A stretch of DNA of 47,138 nt from Betaproteobacteria bacterium (GTDB lineage Bacteria > Pseudomonadota > Gammaproteobacteria > Burkholderiales > SHXO01): positions 1 to 47,138 of the forward strand of contig SHXO01000012.1 of the NCBI GenBank assembly GCA_009693245.1. Direction: 5' to 3'. Shown piece after piece: positions 11,413-25,230 of this stretch (positions are counted from its first letter, which is position 1; the number at the start of each line of letters is the position of its first letter). Under the pieces are notes generated by a model, which saw only the letters and a list, made by a program, of their open reading frames with translations, had not been told where the DNA came from and ran no database searches. A program made the translations under genes and the position numbers.

Positions 11413-11436
11413 GCGTTCGCGGCTACAAGCGAACGC
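11413..11436. terminator. Inverted repeat between convergent genes
   Basis: Arms gcgttcgc (11413-11420) and gcgaacgc (11429-11436) enclose an 8-base loop between the infA stop and the last codons of the convergent AttH-like gene. There is no T-run on either side, so termination activity is uncertain. Confidence 0.4.
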
Positions 11437-12499
11437 GTCCGTGATAGCCCGTCAGCTCCAGATACCCAAGGCCAATTTCTAGTCCGTTGCGTTTCGCACG
11501 CACGGCACCTTCCCAGTACACCGTCCCCGTGCTGGCGCGCGCATCGAGTTCTTGATCATCCATGAGCGGTTCGAGATCCAACTCGAACTCACCCGCCCTT
11601 ACGCGCATGGCAACCGGATAGTGCGCGCCGGTGCGTGGCGAACGCCAGCGGCGCGTGGGAGTGAATGCGACCCCATCCCTAGGTAGGATCTTGGTACGCC
11701 CCGCCGCATCGCGATGGCTCCCTCCCGCCCAATAGGTGTTGCCCGCCTTATCTCGTAGCCGGAAAAACATGAGGGCGCTGCCGTCGTGTAGATTCACTCC
11801 AGCCCAATCCCAGCCAACCGCTTCTTCCGCCAGCATTTCGCTGGACCACTCATGGTCCAGCCATGCAGTACCCGTCACTTGCAGCCGGCGGCCTTCCAAC
11901 ACTACCGTTCCGCTGGCATCCATGTGCGGCAAGCTGTAGTAGTAACTGGCTTGACTGGGATGCGGGCCTTTGCGGCTGAATCCCCCGTCTCCTTGCAACA
12001 GCACCGGCTGGCGTGGCTCGAAAACCAGCGCAAGACCGAAGCTACGCGCGGCGATGGCCGCCGCGTAGCGGGAGCCGTTACGCTTCAGCGACCATCCGTC
12101 CAGCGCCACATTCGTATCGCCTTCTTTCGCGAAAGCGAGCCCAAGAACTTCGCGTGCCGCTCGTTGATCGTGGAAAAGTCTTCCATGCTTGGCCTGCGCG
12201 ATCGCCGCATGCGCGAAGATGAGTTGCTTGGGAGCGAACAGGCTGGGATTGTTCTCCTGAACGCGAGGCCGGTGCCGAAAGAAAGTGACCTGCACGCCCA
12301 GTTCCTCGCCGGTCTGGGTGCGCAGCCATCCGGTGATGTACCACCATTCGGTGCGAAAGGCAGGGTGCGCGCCGTGATCCTGGGGAAAACCAAGTGGCTG
12401 CCGTGCGATGACCTGATCATAGCTACCCGCCGGAGCGACGATCGATGCTAGTAAAAACAGAACGCCGAAATGACTAATCGCACAGTGGTTACATTGCAT
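11423..12499 (-). CDS. AttH/CrtC-like secreted lipocalin-type protein
   Basis: About 358 residues. It has a signal peptide (FGVLFLLASIVAPAGS), then the AttH/CrtC (hydroxyneurosporene synthase-like) pattern: AFRTEWWYITGWL (~48), TFFRHRP (~73), WLDHEWSS (~215) and GWDWAGVNLHDG. Family members have tandem lipocalin-like barrels and may bind or modify hydrophobic molecules. Homologs typically stand directly after an ABC ATPase and an FtsX permease. Those two genes lie at 16811-13670 on the same strand, but a PEP-CTERM gene on the other strand now separates them. ATG 12499 is preferred; an in-frame GTG at 12535 is possible. Neither has a clear Shine-Dalgarno. Confidence 0.85.
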   Translation of the reverse strand: MQCNHCAISHFGVLFLLASIVAPAGSYDQVIARQPLGFPQDHGAHPAFRTEWWYITGWLRTQTGEELGVQVTFFRHRPRVQENNPSLFAPKQLIFAHAAIAQAKHGRLFHDQRAAREVLGLAFAKEGDTNVALDGWSLKRNGSRYAAAIAARSFGLALVFEPRQPVLLQGDGGFSRKGPHPSQASYYYSLPHMDASGTVVLEGRRLQVTGTAWLDHEWSSEMLAEEAVGWDWAGVNLHDGSALMFFRLRDKAGNTYWAGGSHRDAAGRTKILPRDGVAFTPTRRWRSPRTGAHYPVAMRVRAGEFELDLEPLMDDQELDARASTGTVYWEGAVRAKRNGLEIGLGYLELTGYHGRVRL

Positions 12500-12544
12500 G
12501 CGATTTATGGCGCTACGGCTATGGTCTAGGATCACTGTAAGCAG

Positions 12545-12561
12545 TGTCGGAATCCTTTACA
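12545..12561 (+). promoter_or_regulatory. TGTCGG-N5-TTTACA element, copy 1 (proximal, PEP-CTERM gene 1)
   Basis: The sequence is TGTCGGAATCCTTTACA. Its 3' end lies 65 bp upstream of the -24 GG of the sigma-54-type promoter at 12625. The same 17-bp pattern occurs at 13572, 25046 and 25214 and nowhere else I could find. Position and TGT...ACA dyad ends suit an upstream activator site for a sigma-54 enhancer-binding protein. Confidence 0.75.
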
Positions 12562-12624
12562 GTCCATCGCCTCAGATCCTTGTTTAATCTCATAAGAACT
12601 TGATTGTAAGATATAAAATATATA

Positions 12625-12640
12625 TGGCGCAAATACTGCG
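12625..12640 (+). promoter_or_regulatory. Sigma-54 -24/-12 promoter of PEP-CTERM gene 1
   Basis: TGGCGCAAATACTGCG matches the consensus TGGCAC-R-N4-TTGCW in the essential GG and GC dinucleotides at the right spacing, plus C4, C6, R7 and T13. Transcription would begin near 12651, leaving a leader of about 68 nt before the ATG at 12719. The surrounding DNA is AT-rich. Confidence 0.75.
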
Positions 12641-12718
12641 TTATCGGAACTATCCACACCATGGCGCAATATAGATTGTCTGCGGGTCCGATATCAAACA
12701 CATTGAAGGAGAAGGAAA

Positions 12719-13564
12719 ATGAAGTCCGGATTATTGAAGCACACCACAATATTCCCCGCGATAATTGGAGCACTGATGTGTCAAAGTGCATACGCAATCC
12801 TGGTAACGGGGAATACCAACGCGACGGACTTGGGCAATGCGGTAGCCACAAGTGGGGGAGCAGGCCTGACCGTGCTCAGCTCCACGCTGAGCGGAAACAC
12901 TTCGGGCAGCGCTGTGTCGCGCGGTACTTATACCAACGCCTCCGGTACCTACAACATCGGCGATGGGATCGTCATTTCCTCAGGCAACGTGAACGACTAT
13001 AGCGACGGCCCTAACACGAGTACGGGTAATACTACCAATTATTCAACCGCAGCCACGGCCGCCCAGCAGTTATTGCTGAATCAGGTATCGGGCCTATCTA
13101 ACTATCTTGACGTTACGCAACTGGATGTGACCTTCACGACCACCACCGGAGAAGTATTCTTCAACGTAGTGTTCGGCTCCGACGAATTTCAGGAATTTCA
13201 GAACAGCCCCTTCATCGATGCCTTCGGCCTGTTTCTAGATGGCGTTAACATCGCCGTGTTCAACGGCAAGCCCATTAACATAAACCATCCGGATATGGCC
13301 TTTAGGGCTGGCACCGAGCTCGATGGAGTCCTACCTGGAAGCGGCGGCCCCATGCTGTTTTCCGGCACAGGCTTGGATATCACCAAACAACATACCTTGA
13401 CCTTTATCCTTGCAGACCGTGGTGACGGCGCTTTAGACAGCACGGCCTACATTGGTGGCTTAGGCGGTACCGCACCTCAGGGATCTGTTCCGGAGCCGAC
13501 CACTCTAGCACTGATGGGCCTAAGCTTGGTTGGTCTTGGTGCTATGCGCAAACGGAGAACCTAG
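12719..13564 (+). CDS. PEP-CTERM protein with choice-of-anchor-L-type domain
   Basis: 281 residues. A signal peptide (KHTTIFPAIIGALMCQSAYA) is followed by a Thr/Asn/Ser-rich extracellular domain with FFNVVFGSDEFQEF and FIDAFGLFLDGVN, the hallmark of the choice-of-anchor L domain. The end is a full PEP-CTERM sorting signal: VPEP, a hydrophobic stretch (LALMGLSLVGLGAM), then RKRR. Such proteins are cleaved and released by exosortase and belong to the exopolysaccharide/biofilm matrix. GAAGGAGAAGG precedes the ATG. Codon use is less GC-rich than its neighbours. It lies alone on the plus strand between FtsX and AttH genes, bracketed by TGTCGG-N5-TTTACA elements, and ends in a strong terminator. 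Confidence 0.92.
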   Translation: MKSGLLKHTTIFPAIIGALMCQSAYAILVTGNTNATDLGNAVATSGGAGLTVLSSTLSGNTSGSAVSRGTYTNASGTYNIGDGIVISSGNVNDYSDGPNTSTGNTTNYSTAATAAQQLLLNQVSGLSNYLDVTQLDVTFTTTTGEVFFNVVFGSDEFQEFQNSPFIDAFGLFLDGVNIAVFNGKPININHPDMAFRAGTELDGVLPGSGGPMLFSGTGLDITKQHTLTFILADRGDGALDSTAYIGGLGGTAPQGSVPEPTTLALMGLSLVGLGAMRKRRT

Positions 13565-13571
13565 AATCCAC

Positions 13572-13588
13572 TGTCGGAATTCTTTACA
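13572..13588 (+). promoter_or_regulatory. TGTCGG-N5-TTTACA element, copy 2 (downstream, orphan)
   Basis: TGTCGGAATTCTTTACA begins 8 bp after the stop of the PEP-CTERM gene, in the same orientation as copy 1. With its flanks, 20 of 23 bases match the copy 1 region (cagtgtcgg...acagtc against cactgtcgg...acactc). No -24/-12 sequence follows it at a suitable distance on either strand. Confidence 0.65.
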
Positions 13589-13591
13589 CTC

Positions 13592-13620
13592 AACGGCGGC
13601 CAAGGCCGCCGTTTGTTTTT
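13592..13620 (+). terminator. Intrinsic terminator of PEP-CTERM gene 1
   Basis: Perfect 10-bp arms aacggcggcc (13592-13601) and ggccgccgtt (13604-13613) with a 2-base loop are followed by tgttttt. It lies 28 bp after the stop and could also stop transcripts coming the other way. Confidence 0.85.
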
Positions 13621-13669
13621 GGGAATTCGAACGAGAGACATTATCTCGACGGCGCGCAGCGGTGATCTA

Positions 13670-16162
13670 TTACCAGTCATGTTTCACCGCCCGCACCACG
13701 TCGGCGCCCATGGCATTGCGTGCACTCCACCAGCTCGTCAGCGTCGCCAGCGCCAACAAACTTAGTGCAAAGACCGCGAGGCCCATCCACGGGATGAGTA
13801 CCTCCATGCTCCAATGGAAGGACTGTTTGTTAACCACATGGATAAGGATCAGACTCATCACCCATCCCAGGGCGGCCCCTACGAGAATGCCAACACCCGT
13901 GGTCATCGATCCTTCCACGGTAAGCAATCCTCGAATCTGAGAGCGAGTGAGTCCGAGATGGCGCATCACGCCGAACTCGCGTTTGCGCGCCAGTACCAGC
14001 GCACCCACGCTGCTGGACAACCCTACCAACCCGATGATGACTGCCACCGCTTCCAGCGCGTAGGTGATGGCGAAGGTGCGATCGAACACGGATAGGGAAA
14101 TCTCACGAAGCTCTCCGGGCGACGCGGTCTCCAATGCACCACCTCCTGGCAAGCGATGAATAGCCGTGCTAACCGCCTCCAAGGATCCGCCGGGCGCAAG
14201 CCATAGTGCGAACTCGTTGACGCGCCGGTCGCCTGTGATTTGCGCGTAAATCCCGCGGTCCATCAAGAGCGCGCCTTGCTGGCGCGCGTAGTCGCGCCAT
14301 ACGCCAGCAACCGTGAAAGCCACGAACTTTTCCCCGATGGGGAGAGACAGGGAGTCACCCGTCTTGAAACCGTAGAGACCGGCGGCGGCTTCGCTCACCC
14401 AAAGAGCGGGCGCGCGTGGTTCGCCTGATTCGGGCGCCTTCCCTACCACCGGAAGAACATCCCTCGAATCCGCGCCCCAGGTGTCGCGCGCGAGGAGCGT
14501 GACGCGGGGCCGGCCCGCCTCAAGCGCGATCTGCTGGCTGCGTTGAAACTGCACGCGCCTCACACCTGGGAGGGTTCGCACGGATTCTTGCAACTCTTGG
14601 TCAAGAAACGCCGAATCGTTGTACTTGACTGTTCTCACGTACAGGTCCGCGGGCAATACGCGATCCAGCCAGGTCACCAGGGAATCGCGAAAGGAGGCGA
14701 CCATGATGGCCATGGATACCGTGAGGCTCACGGCGGTCACGGTGGCGGCAAGGCTGAGCGAAACCTGGCGCAAGGAGCCGCGCAACTGCGCCACGGGCAA
14801 GAATAATCCTAGCGGCAGGCCAAAGTTCGCCCAACGCAACGAGAATTCCGCCAAACGCGGGAGCAAGGCGATCGTTCCCAGCAATAAGGCGGCGATAGCG
14901 GCATAACCGAACACCGGAAGCCCGCCAATGGGAGGCAGAAAACTCAAGACTGCTCCCGAGACGAGTGCTGCCCACCCGGCGAGGGGACGAATGGATGCAC
15001 CAGTTTCGTCGCGCAGGCCCTTCAACGCAGCGGCCACGGAAATCTTCGCGCTCCGCAACGCAGGCCCCAGGGCTCCGGCAAGTGCCGCGAGAATTCCGCA
15101 AAGGATCATCGCGAACGCGATGCCGTGGGAAAATTCTATTTGCGCATTGGCCAGCGGCCGCGCACCGGAACCCAGATCCCCCTGCGACCATCGCAGTACC
15201 AAGTTCGCGGCGGCGGCGCCGAGCAATACGCCGGCGACCCCTCCCAGCAAACCGATGGCCAGGGCTTCCAGCAGCAAGGAATTTCTTATCTGCGCTCGCG
15301 TGGCGCCGAGCGCGCGCCACAGCGCATGTTGCGCCGAGCGTTGTTCCACCGAGATGGATTGAGTCGCGTAGACCAGCAAAGCCCCGGTGAACAATGCCAC
15401 CAAGGCCAGCACGCCGAGATTGACTCGGTAGGCGCGAGAGACCTGGGCCACGCTGGATTCGGTTTTCCGCGCGGTTGCCACGTACACTCCTGGCGGCATC
15501 AGGCGCTGCATCGCTTCGCGTGCCGCTTCCGCATTCACTCCTTCGCGTAGCTTCATATCGATTCGGTCGATGACACCGAGCCGCCCGAATAGCTGTTGCG
15601 CCGCGCCGATATCCATGACCGCTAGTGGAGTTTCGCTAGCGGCGCTACCAGCGATGCGTAGCGTGACGATGTTCGTACCAGCTTGTACCCGAAGCTCGCC
15701 GCCCGGCCACCTCTTGCGCGCGGCGGCGCTCAAGAAAACGCGATCATCGCGTAGCGATGCAAGCATATCGGTCTCGTCCGAAGGCAAGGGCAATAGCGCG
15801 GGTTGCACACGGGATACGCGGAAAACATCGAGAGCCAGCAATTTGAGCGGCTCATCCTGCCCTGTGACCTTGACTTCCAATTCCAGCGCGGGACTGGCGA
15901 ACTCCACTTCGTCCCGGCTTGCGAGCAGGGGGTAGAGTTCTTCGGAGAATCCCGCCCTGGGGCCGCGCACGATGAGATGGGCCTCGCCGGAAAGCTCGCG
16001 CGTGGCGCGCACGAATTCGTTCTTGGCCTGGCGGTTGATGAGTTGAATGGCGCAACCCAAGGCCACCCCGAGAGATATAGCCAGTAGCGCGATGGCGAAT
16101 CGCAAAGGGTCTTGGCGCACTCCTGCGAGAACGAGTTGCGCGGGCGGGCTATGCCGGAACAA
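13670..16162 (-). CDS. FtsX-like ABC transporter permease (tandem core)
   Basis: 830 residues with two FtsX-type modules. TM segments are visible at ~22-43, ~250-275, ~300-325 and ~355-375, then a middle hydrophobic block (~395-450), ~480-505, and three near the end (~700-725, ~755-775, ~795-815). Large periplasmic domains separate them. This size and layout fit AttF/LolC-type permeases that extract or export lipids or lipoproteins across the periplasm. The frame begins at a TTG (16162) within the ATPase stop region (14-nt overlap), and no in-frame ATG precedes the first TM segment. It pairs with the ATPase upstream. The AttH-like gene would normally follow, but the PEP-CTERM gene intervenes. 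Confidence 0.88.
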   Translation of the reverse strand: MFRHSPPAQLVLAGVRQDPLRFAIALLAISLGVALGCAIQLINRQAKNEFVRATRELSGEAHLIVRGPRAGFSEELYPLLASRDEVEFASPALELEVKVTGQDEPLKLLALDVFRVSRVQPALLPLPSDETDMLASLRDDRVFLSAAARKRWPGGELRVQAGTNIVTLRIAGSAASETPLAVMDIGAAQQLFGRLGVIDRIDMKLREGVNAEAAREAMQRLMPPGVYVATARKTESSVAQVSRAYRVNLGVLALVALFTGALLVYATQSISVEQRSAQHALWRALGATRAQIRNSLLLEALAIGLLGGVAGVLLGAAAANLVLRWSQGDLGSGARPLANAQIEFSHGIAFAMILCGILAALAGALGPALRSAKISVAAALKGLRDETGASIRPLAGWAALVSGAVLSFLPPIGGLPVFGYAAIAALLLGTIALLPRLAEFSLRWANFGLPLGLFLPVAQLRGSLRQVSLSLAATVTAVSLTVSMAIMVASFRDSLVTWLDRVLPADLYVRTVKYNDSAFLDQELQESVRTLPGVRRVQFQRSQQIALEAGRPRVTLLARDTWGADSRDVLPVVGKAPESGEPRAPALWVSEAAAGLYGFKTGDSLSLPIGEKFVAFTVAGVWRDYARQQGALLMDRGIYAQITGDRRVNEFALWLAPGGSLEAVSTAIHRLPGGGALETASPGELREISLSVFDRTFAITYALEAVAVIIGLVGLSSSVGALVLARKREFGVMRHLGLTRSQIRGLLTVEGSMTTGVGILVGAALGWVMSLILIHVVNKQSFHWSMEVLIPWMGLAVFALSLLALATLTSWWSARNAMGADVVRAVKHDW

Positions 16163-16811
16163 GGCCCGATCCCGTGAGCATCATCACTCTATCGGCCCGC
16201 CGCGCCGCCAGTTGCGAATGGGTGACCAGAAGCAGGGTGATACCGGCCTTTCGCACGCAATCCTCCAAGACGTCCAACACGCGGACGGCCGTTTCGGGAT
16301 CCAGATTCCCCGTGGGTTCGTCCGCGAGAATCAGCGCGGGGCGATGCACGATGGCGCGTGCGATGGCCACACGCTGCATTTCGCCTCCGGAAAGAACCGC
16401 GGGAGAATCCGAGGCACGCTCGGGCGCGATGCCCACTTGAGCCAGCGCTTCCCCAGCGCGCGCCAAACTCTCGGCGCCGGAATGCCCGAGCAATCGCAGC
16501 GGCAACGCCACGTTTTGCGCAATGCTCAGGTAAGGTAGTAGATGAAAGGCTTGGAACACGAAGCCGATTTTTTCTCGCCGGAGCAAGGTCATCTCATCCT
16601 CGCCGAGCGCGGTAACATCGGTGCCGTCCAGGAGGATTCGGCCTGAATCTGGCCTGTCTAGTCCGGCCACCAGATTGAGCAGCGTGGATTTGCCCACGCC
16701 AGATTCGCCCATCACGGCAATGAATTCTCCCCTGCCCGCCTGGAAACTTAGGGAATCCATGAGCCGCCTTCCACCGGGGACGGATTTGCTGACGCAGTCG
16801 AGGCAGAGCAT
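16149..16811 (-). CDS. ABC transporter ATPase (LolD/AttE-like)
   Basis: About 220 residues, a single nucleotide-binding domain. It has Walker A GESGVGKST (~36), Q-loop VFQAFHLLP (~84), signature LSGGEMQRVAIARA (~139) and Walker B LILADEPTGNLDP (~159). The MacB/LolD subgroup powers FtsX-like permeases. The start at 16811 aligns with family members; an ATG at 16844 would add 11 residues. It overlaps the permease by 14 nt, so the two are translation-coupled. The gene is divergent from the MORN/C13 protein gene (63 bp between starts), and the pair probably shares a control region. Confidence 0.9.
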   Translation of the reverse strand: MLCLDCVSKSVPGGRRLMDSLSFQAGRGEFIAVMGESGVGKSTLLNLVAGLDRPDSGRILLDGTDVTALGEDEMTLLRREKIGFVFQAFHLLPYLSIAQNVALPLRLLGHSGAESLARAGEALAQVGIAPERASDSPAVLSGGEMQRVAIARAIVHRPALILADEPTGNLDPETAVRVLDVLEDCVRKAGITLLLVTHSQLAARRADRVMMLTGSGLVPA

Positions 16812-16874
16812 AGGTGTGCATAATAAATGCTCTTCGGCGGCCATTGAACCGAAGAATCGATTGATGGAACCTTC

Positions 16875-18509
16875 ATGACGAAACGCACGGTTGTCATCGC
16901 CCTCTTTGTTGGAGCACTTGCGGCGTGGATCATTTCCGCACCCGCCCGCACTGGCGCTCACCCAGGCGCCCTCACCGCCGACGGTGGCCGCTACTTCGGC
17001 AAATTGGCGAACGGCAAGCTGCACGGCCAAGGCCGTATCGAATGGGAGAACGGCGCCTTCTACGAAGGAGAGTTCGCCGAGGGTTTGTACTCTGGCCGCG
17101 GGCGCTTGCGATTGGCTTCTGGCGATGTTTACGAAGGGCAGTTCAAGAAAGGGCTGATGGAAGGCCCGGGCCGCACGCGCTATTCGGACGGCGATACCTA
17201 CGCTGGAGAGTTCCGCTCAGGACGCATGCACGGTAAAGGGCGCTATGAGGATGCCCGGGGAGATGTTTACGAGGGAGAATTCGACAAAGATAAATTCGCC
17301 GGCCAGGGCCTTCACATCCGAAAAGGCGGCGGCCGCCACGAAGGCCGCTTCGCCAACTGGCAGCCCGAGGGACCGGGCCGCCACACCGATGCCATGGGCC
17401 GCGTCTATGAGGGCGAGTTCGCCAACGGAGAACTCAACGGCCGGGGCCGCTCGGATGGCAAGGCGGCGGGACGCTACGAAGGCGAGTTCAAGAACTGGCT
17501 CTTCCACGGACAAGGCGTCCTTTACCTTCCCAACGGAGATGTCTACCGGGGAGGCTTCGCCGATGGCCTCTACGACGGCGAAGGCACGCTCACTTACGCC
17601 AAGCCAATTCCCGGTGGCCGCACGCAAGATAGCGGCATCTGGCGTAACGGGGAACTGGAGGATGCGGCGCGCGAAAAACTAGATCTAGCCAACAGCGAAG
17701 CCGCGCTCTACAACCAACGCGCGCTGCTGGACAAGGCGTTGAGCGCCATCGAGGCGAGGGATGCGGGAAAGATCAACTTGTACATGCTCTCCGTCGCCGG
17801 TGAAGGCACGCAGGAAGTATTCAGGCGCGAAGTGGATTTCGTGACGGATTTATTTGGGCGCCAATTCGGCATCAAGGGCCGCGCGCTTGCCTTGGTCAAC
17901 AGCCGCAACACGGTGGCCACGCACCCCATGGCCACGGTCACCAGCATTCGCGAAGCCCTTCAGGGCATCGCCAGACGCATGGATAGGCAGAAGGACATAT
18001 TGTTCCTGTTCATCACTAGCCATGGTTCGAAGGAACACGAGATTTCGCTGGGCCAAGAGAAGATAAAGTTGCGCGGCCTGCCCGCCCAGGATCTGGGCCA
18101 GATGCTCAAGGAGACGGGAATTACCTGGAAAGTCATCCTGATTTCGGCTTGCTACAGCGGCGGTTTCATCGATGCCCTCAAGGACGATCACACCTTGATC
18201 ATGACCGCCGCGCGCCGCGACCGGACCTCCTTCGGCTGCGCCGACGAAAACGACTTCACTTATTTCGGGCGCGCCTTTTTCAAGGAGTCGTTGCCCGCCA
18301 GCACCTCGTTTCAAGACGCCTTCCAACGCGCGGAGAAATTAGTGCGGGAGTGGGAGCGAAAAGATCTGAGCGGGAACGGCCGCGCCGGCGAGGAAGAATA
18401 TTCTCTCCCTCAAATATTCAATCCCGCGCCGGCGGAAAGGTATTTGCGGCGATGGTGGGCACAGGTGCAAGCGAGCGCCCGTGCCCCGGAAGGTCGCGCC
18501 GCCCGCTAA
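16875..18509 (+). CDS. MORN-repeat protein with caspase-like C13 peptidase domain
   Basis: 544 residues. An N-terminal hydrophobic segment (VVIALFVGALAAWIISAPA, ~6-24) is a signal or anchor. Residues ~40-240 form nine MORN units (pattern Y-E-G-E-F-x2-G-x3-G-x-G). A linker helix (~262-295) leads to a peptidase C13 (legumain/caspase-clan) domain, ~299-520. The catalytic dyad is readable: His383 in FITSHGS and Cys426 in ISACYSG. MORN repeats often bind membranes or act as extended beta scaffolds, and the protease would be placed outside the cytoplasmic membrane. Its substrate is unknown. Its stop overlaps the stop of the convergent RND gene. It is divergent from the ABC ATPase. Confidence 0.9.
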   Translation: MTKRTVVIALFVGALAAWIISAPARTGAHPGALTADGGRYFGKLANGKLHGQGRIEWENGAFYEGEFAEGLYSGRGRLRLASGDVYEGQFKKGLMEGPGRTRYSDGDTYAGEFRSGRMHGKGRYEDARGDVYEGEFDKDKFAGQGLHIRKGGGRHEGRFANWQPEGPGRHTDAMGRVYEGEFANGELNGRGRSDGKAAGRYEGEFKNWLFHGQGVLYLPNGDVYRGGFADGLYDGEGTLTYAKPIPGGRTQDSGIWRNGELEDAAREKLDLANSEAALYNQRALLDKALSAIEARDAGKINLYMLSVAGEGTQEVFRREVDFVTDLFGRQFGIKGRALALVNSRNTVATHPMATVTSIREALQGIARRMDRQKDILFLFITSHGSKEHEISLGQEKIKLRGLPAQDLGQMLKETGITWKVILISACYSGGFIDALKDDHTLIMTAARRDRTSFGCADENDFTYFGRAFFKESLPASTSFQDAFQRAEKLVREWERKDLSGNGRAGEEEYSLPQIFNPAPAERYLRRWWAQVQASARAPEGRAAR

Positions 18510-24033: not shown

Positions 24034-24870
24034 TCAGGTCAGCCGGCGTGCCCGCCGCTCGGCCACCAACCCTGCGAGACTGAGCGCCATTAAGCTCACG
24101 GTCCCTGGCTCATGGACAAAGTTACCATTCCTGATTTGAACGTTGCCAGCAAGAGTAGTTGGAACGCCAGCCGCGTCGGTATCAACCACAGTGAGCCCAC
24201 CCACCGCGCCAAAGGAATTGTGTGTCGGATCGTTCATGTCGGAGTTAGTCAACCCCGGAAACAGCGCTGCTCCCGCGACTGTCAGCGCATAGGGTGCCGA
24301 TGTCGCAACTGACGTCACCACCACCGGGAGGAACCCAAAGAGATCCGGATTCGACCCTAAGGTATCGTCTAAACAAAAACCACTAGCCGGAGAACACTCG
24401 GAAAGAGCCAGTAGGCCACCACCTGCATTGATGAATGTCGCGATGTCCGTCTTTCGCGCGATGAGCGCGTCCAATTCCGCCTGCTTCAGCATGCCGCCGA
24501 AGGAGGAGGCGATAGCGATGGCTTCGTAGTTCGATAGATTCGCGCTTGCAAATCCCGCCGCATCCACCCAGTCATACTCCACCCCGAGGGTCAGGAGTAT
24601 GGCGTTCAGGCCGTCCTCTCCAACAAGATGGCCTGGCGTCGGAGAATCAAAGCTCTCCACCCACAAAAACTTGGTAGTTATGTTGGTGTAAACCCCCCCG
24701 GTGACAAAGCTCAATCCAGCTTTCAGTAGGTTCTTGGCTCCTAGGCTGCTCCGGGCGTGAAAGTCCGGATCATGCCCCGTTAGAAATACGGGACCGGCAG
24801 CGGCTGGGGCCGTTGCCAGCGCCGACAACGCAAACGCCAGGGCAGTAATCTTTGTCTTTAGATCGGTCAT
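24034..24870 (-). CDS. PEP-CTERM protein with GATase1-like domain
   Basis: 278 residues. A signal peptide (MTDLKTKITALAFALSALATA) ends at AAAG. The middle (SNYEAIAIASSFGGML, DIATFINAGGGLLALSE) resembles a class-I glutamine-amidotransferase-like/ThuA-like fold, with Cys where a nucleophile could lie (SECSP), but catalysis is not shown. The end is a PEP-CTERM signal: HEPGT, a hydrophobic run (VSLMALSLAGLVA), then ERRARR. AAGGAG lies 8 bases before the ATG. It would be exported, sorted by exosortase and released at the surface. Upstream there are a sigma-54-type promoter (24977) and two TGTCGG-N5-TTTACA elements. No exosortase gene is in the window. Confidence 0.88.
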   Translation of the reverse strand: MTDLKTKITALAFALSALATAPAAAGPVFLTGHDPDFHARSSLGAKNLLKAGLSFVTGGVYTNITTKFLWVESFDSPTPGHLVGEDGLNAILLTLGVEYDWVDAAGFASANLSNYEAIAIASSFGGMLKQAELDALIARKTDIATFINAGGGLLALSECSPASGFCLDDTLGSNPDLFGFLPVVVTSVATSAPYALTVAGAALFPGLTNSDMNDPTHNSFGAVGGLTVVDTDAAGVPTTLAGNVQIRNGNFVHEPGTVSLMALSLAGLVAERRARRLT

Positions 24871-25045: not shown

Positions 25046-25062
25046 TGTAAATTCAGCCGACA
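25046..25062 (-). promoter_or_regulatory. TGTCGG-N5-TTTACA element, copy 3 (proximal, PEP-CTERM gene 2)
   Basis: On the minus strand it reads TGTCGGCTGAATTTACA. Its promoter-proximal end is 55 bp from the -24 GG, exactly 10 bp less than at PEP-CTERM gene 1, so both sites face the same side of the helix. Its orientation relative to the promoter is also the same. Confidence 0.75.
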
Positions 25063-25213: not shown

Positions 25214-25230
25214 TGTAAAGAAAGCCGACA
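25214..25230 (-). promoter_or_regulatory. TGTCGG-N5-TTTACA element, copy 4 (distal, PEP-CTERM gene 2)
   Basis: On the minus strand it reads TGTCGGCTTTCTTTACA. It lies 168 bp (16 helical turns) upstream of copy 3, in the same orientation. A second upstream activator site is usual for sigma-54 promoters. Confidence 0.7.

Follow-up and report, generated by a model that had tools for sequence, protein, structure and literature searches.

The regulon of PEP-CTERM proteins matters for floc formation. In proteobacteria, PEP-CTERM genes are preceded by a 17-nt element ending in TTTACA (motif 1) and by a sigma-54 type -24/-12 site (motif 2), which lies on average 62.8 nt past motif 1 and is followed by the start codon a mean of 71 nt further on (Haft et al., 2006, PMC1569441). 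Binding of motif 1 by PrsR is put forward in the same paper as a proposal, and motif 1 is described there as sometimes repeated upstream. One such gene, pepA of Aquincola tertiaricarbonis, is reported to depend on RpoN; its -24/-12 promoter has been mapped, an enhancer is predicted upstream, and a terminator lies behind the gene (PMC9850573). A sigma-54 activator site can also stand at the other end of a gene: that of rocG in Bacillus subtilis lies downstream of the gene, 1.5 kb from the promoter (Belitsky and Sonenshein, 1999, cited in PMC3844500), and activator sites as far as 1.5 kb past the start site are described (PMC7408454).

The locus described here lies in a stretch of 47,138 nucleotides from a Betaproteobacteria bacterium (contig SHXO01000012.1), which was analysed as a whole and is called the window. 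It resembles the element of Haft et al. in having a 17-nt TTTACA motif, 63 nt, a -24/-12 site and a single PEP-CTERM gene, but differs in a further copy of the motif behind the gene and before the terminator; we found no mention of such a copy in that paper, whose main text lacks the word "terminator" (PMC1569441). With pepA of A. tertiaricarbonis it shares a PEP-CTERM gene with a -24/-12 promoter, an upstream enhancer and a terminator, whereas we found no second enhancer site described behind pepA (PMC9850573). The likeness to rocG consists in a putative sigma-54 activator site behind the gene to be controlled; however, regulon and phylum are different, and the gene in the window also has an upstream copy. 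A literature search at the level of titles and abstract openings found no description of a motif copy behind PEP-CTERM genes. As far as these sources go, the upstream layout of motif 1 is already known, and its variant with a second copy between gene and terminator is one that we did not find in print.

Results

Two copies of motif 1 flank a single gene

The gene and its control elements comprise the following features.

12545 to 12561, plus strand: upstream copy of motif 1, an exact match and putative PrsR enhancer site, identical with motif 1 of Haft et al. (17 nt, 3' end TTTACA; PMC1569441)
12625 to 12640, plus strand: predicted sigma-54 type -24/-12 promoter TGGCGCAAATACTGCG, beginning 63 nt past motif 1, with the ATG about 79 nt further on
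12719 to 13564, plus strand: PEP-CTERM gene, 281 aa, with a choice-of-anchor L domain (NF038133, 93.3 bits; TIGR02595, 26.7 bits; PF07589, 30.2 bits)
13484 to 13552, plus strand: PEP-CTERM sorting tail (PF07589, 33.2 bits in the genome search)
13572 to 13588, plus strand: downstream copy of motif 1, an exact match, 7 nt past the stop codon
13592 to 13620, plus strand: predicted intrinsic terminator AACGGCGGCC-AA-GGCCGCCGTT with a T-run (fold of 13560-13630: -26.4 kcal/mol, z -3.2)

A preliminary description of this DNA had claimed a pair of repeats of about 23 bp in like orientation around the gene. Both copies are real and lie on the plus strand, where exact TGTCGGAATnnTTTACA is found at 12545-12561 and 13572-13588 and nowhere else in the 3.0-Mb genome; the upstream copy reads TGTCGGAATCCTTTACA and the downstream copy TGTCGGAATTCTTTACA. 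Four matches to TGTCGGAATNNTTTACA with at most 3 mismatches occur in the window, against 0.48 expected, and none of 100 shuffles reached four. The same threshold gave 25 matches in the genome (3,001,929 bases) compared with 11 for a reversed control pattern, and the two copies around the gene are the only ones among the 25 with 0 mismatches. The match of 23 bp is in effect the 17-bp motif, identical at 16 of 17 positions between the copies, plus chance: the likeness of the flanks is equalled by 24% (left) and 43% (right) of random pairs, and the longest word common to both edges of the unit measures 5 nt.

It had further been proposed that the gene's own control element is what is repeated, and that a promoter accompanies the upstream copy only. 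The former is borne out by the identity with motif 1 of Haft et al., and the latter agrees with a -24/-12 site TGGCGCAAATACTGC 63 nt past the upstream copy and with the lack of any GG-N10-GC site 20-115 nt past the downstream copy. The promoter score at 12625-12640 (17.5) is reached by 1.35% of random 95-nt stretches. The missing promoter behind the downstream copy is weak evidence when taken alone, because 54% of random 95-nt stretches are also without a site. Ahead of the next plus-strand gene (16875), a possible target of the downstream copy, the search for a sigma-54 promoter yielded an unremarkable best score of 15.0. Judged by sequence and spacing, the upstream copy is the usual enhancer of the sigma-54 promoter in front of the gene, with PrsR as its putative binding protein, and both copies are putative binding sites of the PEP-CTERM regulon, that is, of the proposed PrsR site type of Haft et al.

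A rare but recurrent 3' end

The surroundings of PEP-CTERM genes were surveyed in genomes of the order, 63 of 300 of which contain the exact pattern TGTCGGANNNNTTTACA. From stretches around the listed places and from other collected loci we obtained 144 distinct motif instances and, excluding genes with less than 150 nt past the stop, 151 PEP-CTERM-like genes; loci L066-L145, chosen by their CrtC protein, were left out of both counts and of the non-PEP control. Recognition of PEP-CTERM genes relied on a regular expression, which admits false positives (e.g. L323) and misses degenerate tails. On this basis, 64 of the 144 instances precede a recognised PEP-CTERM gene by at most 600 nt and 80 do not. 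Six stand within 400 nt past a recognised stop on the matching strand: four belong, as upstream sites, to another PEP-CTERM gene that follows in tandem, and the fifth is the window's downstream copy. The sixth, at L323, was rejected, its frame having been wrongly scored as PEP-CTERM by the regular expression.

An upstream motif was found for 56, 70 and 81 of the 151 genes (0, at most 1 and at most 2 mismatches) and a downstream motif (within 300 nt, own strand) for 6, 10 and 14, while the reversed pattern gave 0, 0 and 0 downstream. Several of the imperfect downstream matches consist of a terminator 3' arm and T-run (TGTCGGGCTTTTTT). Such an arm (TGTCGGGC-TTTTTT-AC and similar) closely mimics motif 1 behind the PEP-CTERM genes of L332, L341, L053 and L059, which may be chance or may point to a link between terminator and motif. 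Oppositely oriented copies of the motif stand behind PEP-CTERM genes at L381 (2831-2847, minus strand) and L327 (2506). The exact motif occurs within 60 nt past the stop in 16 of 816 non-PEP ORFs versus 1 of 151 PEP-CTERM-like genes, and within 300 nt past the end in 57 of 816 versus 6 of 151; this control is biased and does not discriminate, because most loci were chosen for carrying the motif.

Close to the stop codon the picture is sharper. When only matches starting at most 12 nt past the stop are considered, the best one has 0, 0 and 2 mismatches in three of the 151 genes, whereas at least 4 are counted in each of the remaining 148; a uniform-base estimate predicts about 0.06 genes with at most 2 mismatches there. 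These three genes belong to the window, to G181 and to G017, and in each of them the motif is directly followed by a terminator with the stem AACGGCGGCC. Together with a fourth gene (G400) found by directed search, they represent the layout stop codon, motif 1, ACGGCGGC terminator. The bracketed arrangement thus recurs in other genomes (G181, G400, G017), though not at the other PEP-CTERM genes found in the window's own genome, and with a motif this near the stop in only 3 of 151 surveyed genes, the idea of downstream copies as a general rule has to be given up.

The same genes emerge when the search starts from the motif. Among 996 motif-like sites (at most 3 mismatches) in the collected loci, ten are followed by a terminator-like hairpin, and the best three of these by motif match are the PEP-CTERM 3' ends of the window, G181 and G017 with their identical stem. 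The combined pattern of motif and stem gave seven matches over 398 genomes around G181, three of them PEP-CTERM 3' ends (G181, G017 and the new G400) and four not. The downstream 17-mer of G400 is identical to that of the window. G181, G400 and G017 come from a single family (f15), which differs from that of the window's genome (f1). The four proteins resemble one another only in the C-terminal tail, short or weak matches aside, and their bodies are choice-of-anchor L, nidogen-like, C-type lectin and unassigned. Three of the four genes have an exact upstream motif and that of G017 has one with 2 mismatches; in no case is the downstream copy identical to the upstream site of its own gene, bases differing in each.

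Although their bodies are unrelated, the four genes have tail, motif and terminator in common; their aligned 3' ends contain 36 invariant columns, and CACTGTCGGAATTCTTTACAC is present in both the window and G400. These likenesses could be understood if tail, stop, motif and terminator travelled as a block that is joined to different bodies, with the motif as passenger or crossover point. We regard this as distinctly unlikely, since part of the likeness is to be expected from protein function, which constrains the tail, and from binding, which constrains the motif; furthermore, G400 was found by a pattern that fixes part of motif and stem, and four cases are few. The terminator does not bring the motif along, because similar GGCGGC terminators stand without it behind the PEP-CTERM genes of L310, L326 and L055.

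The downstream copies of G181 and G017 end in TGACA instead of TTACA and are more symmetric. This leads to a further explanation, in which the transcribed copy forms a small hairpin by the terminator, with a role in stability or termination, and the likeness to motif 1 is incidental. The copy does lie within the 3' untranslated stretch, the G181 copy is a near-perfect hairpin, 13560-13630 folds with a z of -3.2, though mainly via the terminator stem, and some PEP-CTERM terminators mimic motif 1 through their 3' arm and T-run. However, the copies of the window and of G400 are the exact DNA consensus, and that of the window forms no hairpin of its own in the predicted fold, so that an RNA element appears very unlikely.

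An addition to a conserved junction

The neighbours of the unit are all encoded on the opposite strand.

11423 to 12535, minus strand: CrtC-type lipocalin gene, left flank, longest frame (PF07143, 197.5 bits; PF17186, 136.4 bits)
13670 to 16162, minus strand: ABC permease gene of FtsX/MacB type, right flank (PF02687, 98.7 bits)
16149 to 17030, minus strand: ABC ATPase gene adjoining the permease gene (PF00005, 118.4 bits)

The next gene behind the PEP-CTERM gene is the permease gene (13670-16162, minus strand), which is convergent to it. A search with the lipocalin gave 223 relatives, the best 80 of which were taken as loci. Among these best 80 of 223, the permease lies directly upstream of the lipocalin on one strand in 73, with a median gap of 77 nt between the matched regions and more than 250 nt in only three; the other seven comprise three with less than 270 nt before the lipocalin match and four with a different neighbour. 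The two genes are also adjacent in the congeners G001 and G002, and in G003 a small unrelated gene lies between them, the junction sequence being that of the scanned locus L077. The 73 empty junctions (14,714 bases) contain no convincing motif at up to 4 mismatches, as the one 4-mismatch match sits in an unrelated insert of L089, and none was seen by eye at the junctions of G001 and G002, which are outside the scanned 73.

The flanking genes adjoin each other in relatives and congeners, where the PEP-CTERM gene is missing between them, and by this comparison the latter is a late addition. The unit of enhancer, promoter, gene, second site and terminator was gained in this lineage, antisense, between permease and lipocalin, or else it was lost very widely. 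No copy is found at the empty sites. Homologues of the 281-aa protein (E <= 1e-6) occur in 8 of 399 genomes of the order including its own, the best one outside it being 39% identical. The GC content of the insert is 51.6% versus 60.2% for the window, a deficit that comes largely from the promoter region (39.9%).

Other unrelated genes have been taken up at the permease-lipocalin junction of L077/L188, L089 and L126, namely a SnoaL-like frame, a nucleotidyltransferase-type-like pair and a PIN-type toxin-like pair (names assigned by eye), and therefore the junction tolerates insertions. The permease-lipocalin operon is also present in metagenome bins labelled Bordetella parapertussis (L071, L115, L138), labels that look doubtful.

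The preliminary description had gone further and regarded the gene as a cassette that is moved or deleted by recombination between its two direct repeats. In its favour, the gene is indeed an addition, inserted between genes that are adjacent elsewhere, and the left repeat starts at most 10 nt from the longest-frame start of the neighbouring lipocalin gene. The repeats as agents of the movement do not survive. An empty site with one copy had been predicted, but the 73 junctions hold no convincing motif, and neither longer repeats nor a target-site duplication were found around the unit. The repeat is confined to 17 bp, with no likeness beyond, the terminator lies outside the right-hand repeat, and no further long frame resembling a recombinase was seen by eye between the flanking genes. 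Moreover, downstream copies are rare (3 of 151 surveyed PEP-CTERM-like genes), and the unit has no nucleotide relative among 72,556 plasmid records. On virus-labelled contigs, the exact 17-mer occurs in ten stretches, none with a PEP-CTERM stop just ahead of the motif (two of them, L390 and L391, have it near PEP-CTERM-like frames), and of the 13 stretches that contain the motif-plus-stem pattern, not one is a PEP-CTERM 3' end. The claim that each PEP-CTERM gene is a cassette also fails in the genome itself, where the other PEP-CTERM genes that were found are without an own-strand downstream copy. Hence the two sites do not resemble the traces that a mobile cassette would leave, recombination between them is not supported, and we consider this explanation highly improbable. 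The tempting reading has to be corrected in a general sense as well, as direct repeats flanking a gene need not be recombination sites.

The PEP-CTERM regulon in this genome

Five PEP-CTERM genes were found in the genome with PF07589 (E <= 0.02), one of them being the gene at 12719-13564. Those on contigs C44 and C89 have an upstream motif copy at up to 3 mismatches, and that on C16 has a 3-mismatch one upstream together with a 3-mismatch match behind the gene on the opposite strand; no own-strand copy (at most 3 mismatches) was detected behind the stop of the other PEP-CTERM genes found. A further gene of the window is of the same kind.

24034 to 24858, minus strand: second PEP-CTERM-like gene of the window, with a degenerate HEP tail (weak NF033554 / NF038125 matches)

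Motif-1-like sites lie upstream of it on its own strand at 25046-25062 and 25214-25230, and no copy with at most 3 mismatches lies downstream. Elsewhere in the genome (L179 on contig C46, 2268-2410, minus strand), two motif-1-like sites 126 nt apart are followed by a -24/-12-like site, and the gene behind them (MTDQVYSEEQANTYTAS..., start near 2012 of L179) has no recognised PEP-CTERM tail; control by the motif may extend to a different and possibly secreted protein.

The best match to PrsR (TIGR02915) in the genome reaches 360 bits, which is below the curated cut-off of 502.6, and a partial PrsR match on C46 is nearer to GlrR (367.6 vs 257.2 bits). Two of three congeners have PrsR (G001, 727 bits; G003, 722 bits). 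Likewise, exosortase (PF09721) gave 0 matches in this assembly, which is 97% complete, and was found in all of G001, G002 and G003. These absences possibly reflect a gap in the 97%-complete assembly, or else a regulon that is decaying here. PEP-CTERM genes and their enhancers are present, but neither an exosortase nor a PrsR above the cut-off was detected. The motif site may therefore be without its protein in this organism, and if the regulon is decaying, the downstream copy could be a relic.

It is conceivable in this context that a second, tandem PEP-CTERM gene once followed and has since disappeared from this lineage together with its promoter, leaving its enhancer behind. Tandem PEP-CTERM genes with their own motif 1 do exist in four cases (G001:C17, which is L348, as well as L310, L336 and L332), the motif standing behind the first gene in like orientation as it does in the window, and decay is plausible in a genome from which exosortase and PrsR seem to be gone. 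In the tandem cases, however, the motif lies 70-160 nt past the stop, is followed by a -24/-12 site and a gene, and serves the next promoter, whereas the copy in the window lies 7 nt past the stop, ahead of a terminator and without a promoter, and serves none. In addition, the tight layout recurs in G181, G400 and G017 with no same-strand PEP-CTERM gene behind it in the stretches examined. A leftover enhancer therefore seems unlikely to us, albeit worth keeping in mind.

Discussion

Besides the ordinary arrangement of enhancer and sigma-54 promoter, the locus has a second copy of motif 1 that lies 7 nt after the stop codon and 3 nt before the terminator stem. We favour, tentatively, the reading of this copy as a putative second, downstream activating site, by analogy with rocG of Bacillus. 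An activator bound there would contact the promoter, about 0.95 kb off, through looping of the DNA, and the putative site at 13572-13588 is within the reach of a sigma-54 promoter, as it lies about 0.95 kb from 12625. The copy would then form part of the rare but recurrent 3' end composed of stop codon, motif 1 and ACGGCGGC terminator. In favour of a downstream activating site, both copies are exact matches to the consensus the predicted -24/-12 site stands at the spacing of Haft et al., and good matches right behind the stop are set well apart from all others among the 151 genes; against it, PrsR and exosortase are apparently absent from this genome, and the more symmetric TGACA copies of G181 and G017 fit an RNA hairpin as well. 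With the layout present in just 3 of 151 genes, a downstream site of this kind would be dispensable. To our knowledge, downstream enhancers seem rare among described bacterial genes.

Taken a step further, a subset of PEP-CTERM genes might be built as a standard unit, in which enhancer, sigma-54 promoter, exchangeable body, PEP-CTERM tail, second enhancer and fixed terminator follow one another. The 3' block would be common across families and fitted to unrelated bodies, and a single activator, acting on both enhancers, would draw the gene into an end-to-end loop. We put this forward as speculation that is less likely to be right than wrong by a wide measure.

So far as we found in the literature, the PEP-CTERM regulon has been little tested at the DNA level. 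The four genes offer a hint in that their 3' ends are common and their bodies are not, and a defined 17-bp site that stands at either end of a gene and recurs in other families would provide a simple testable case of end-to-end looping.
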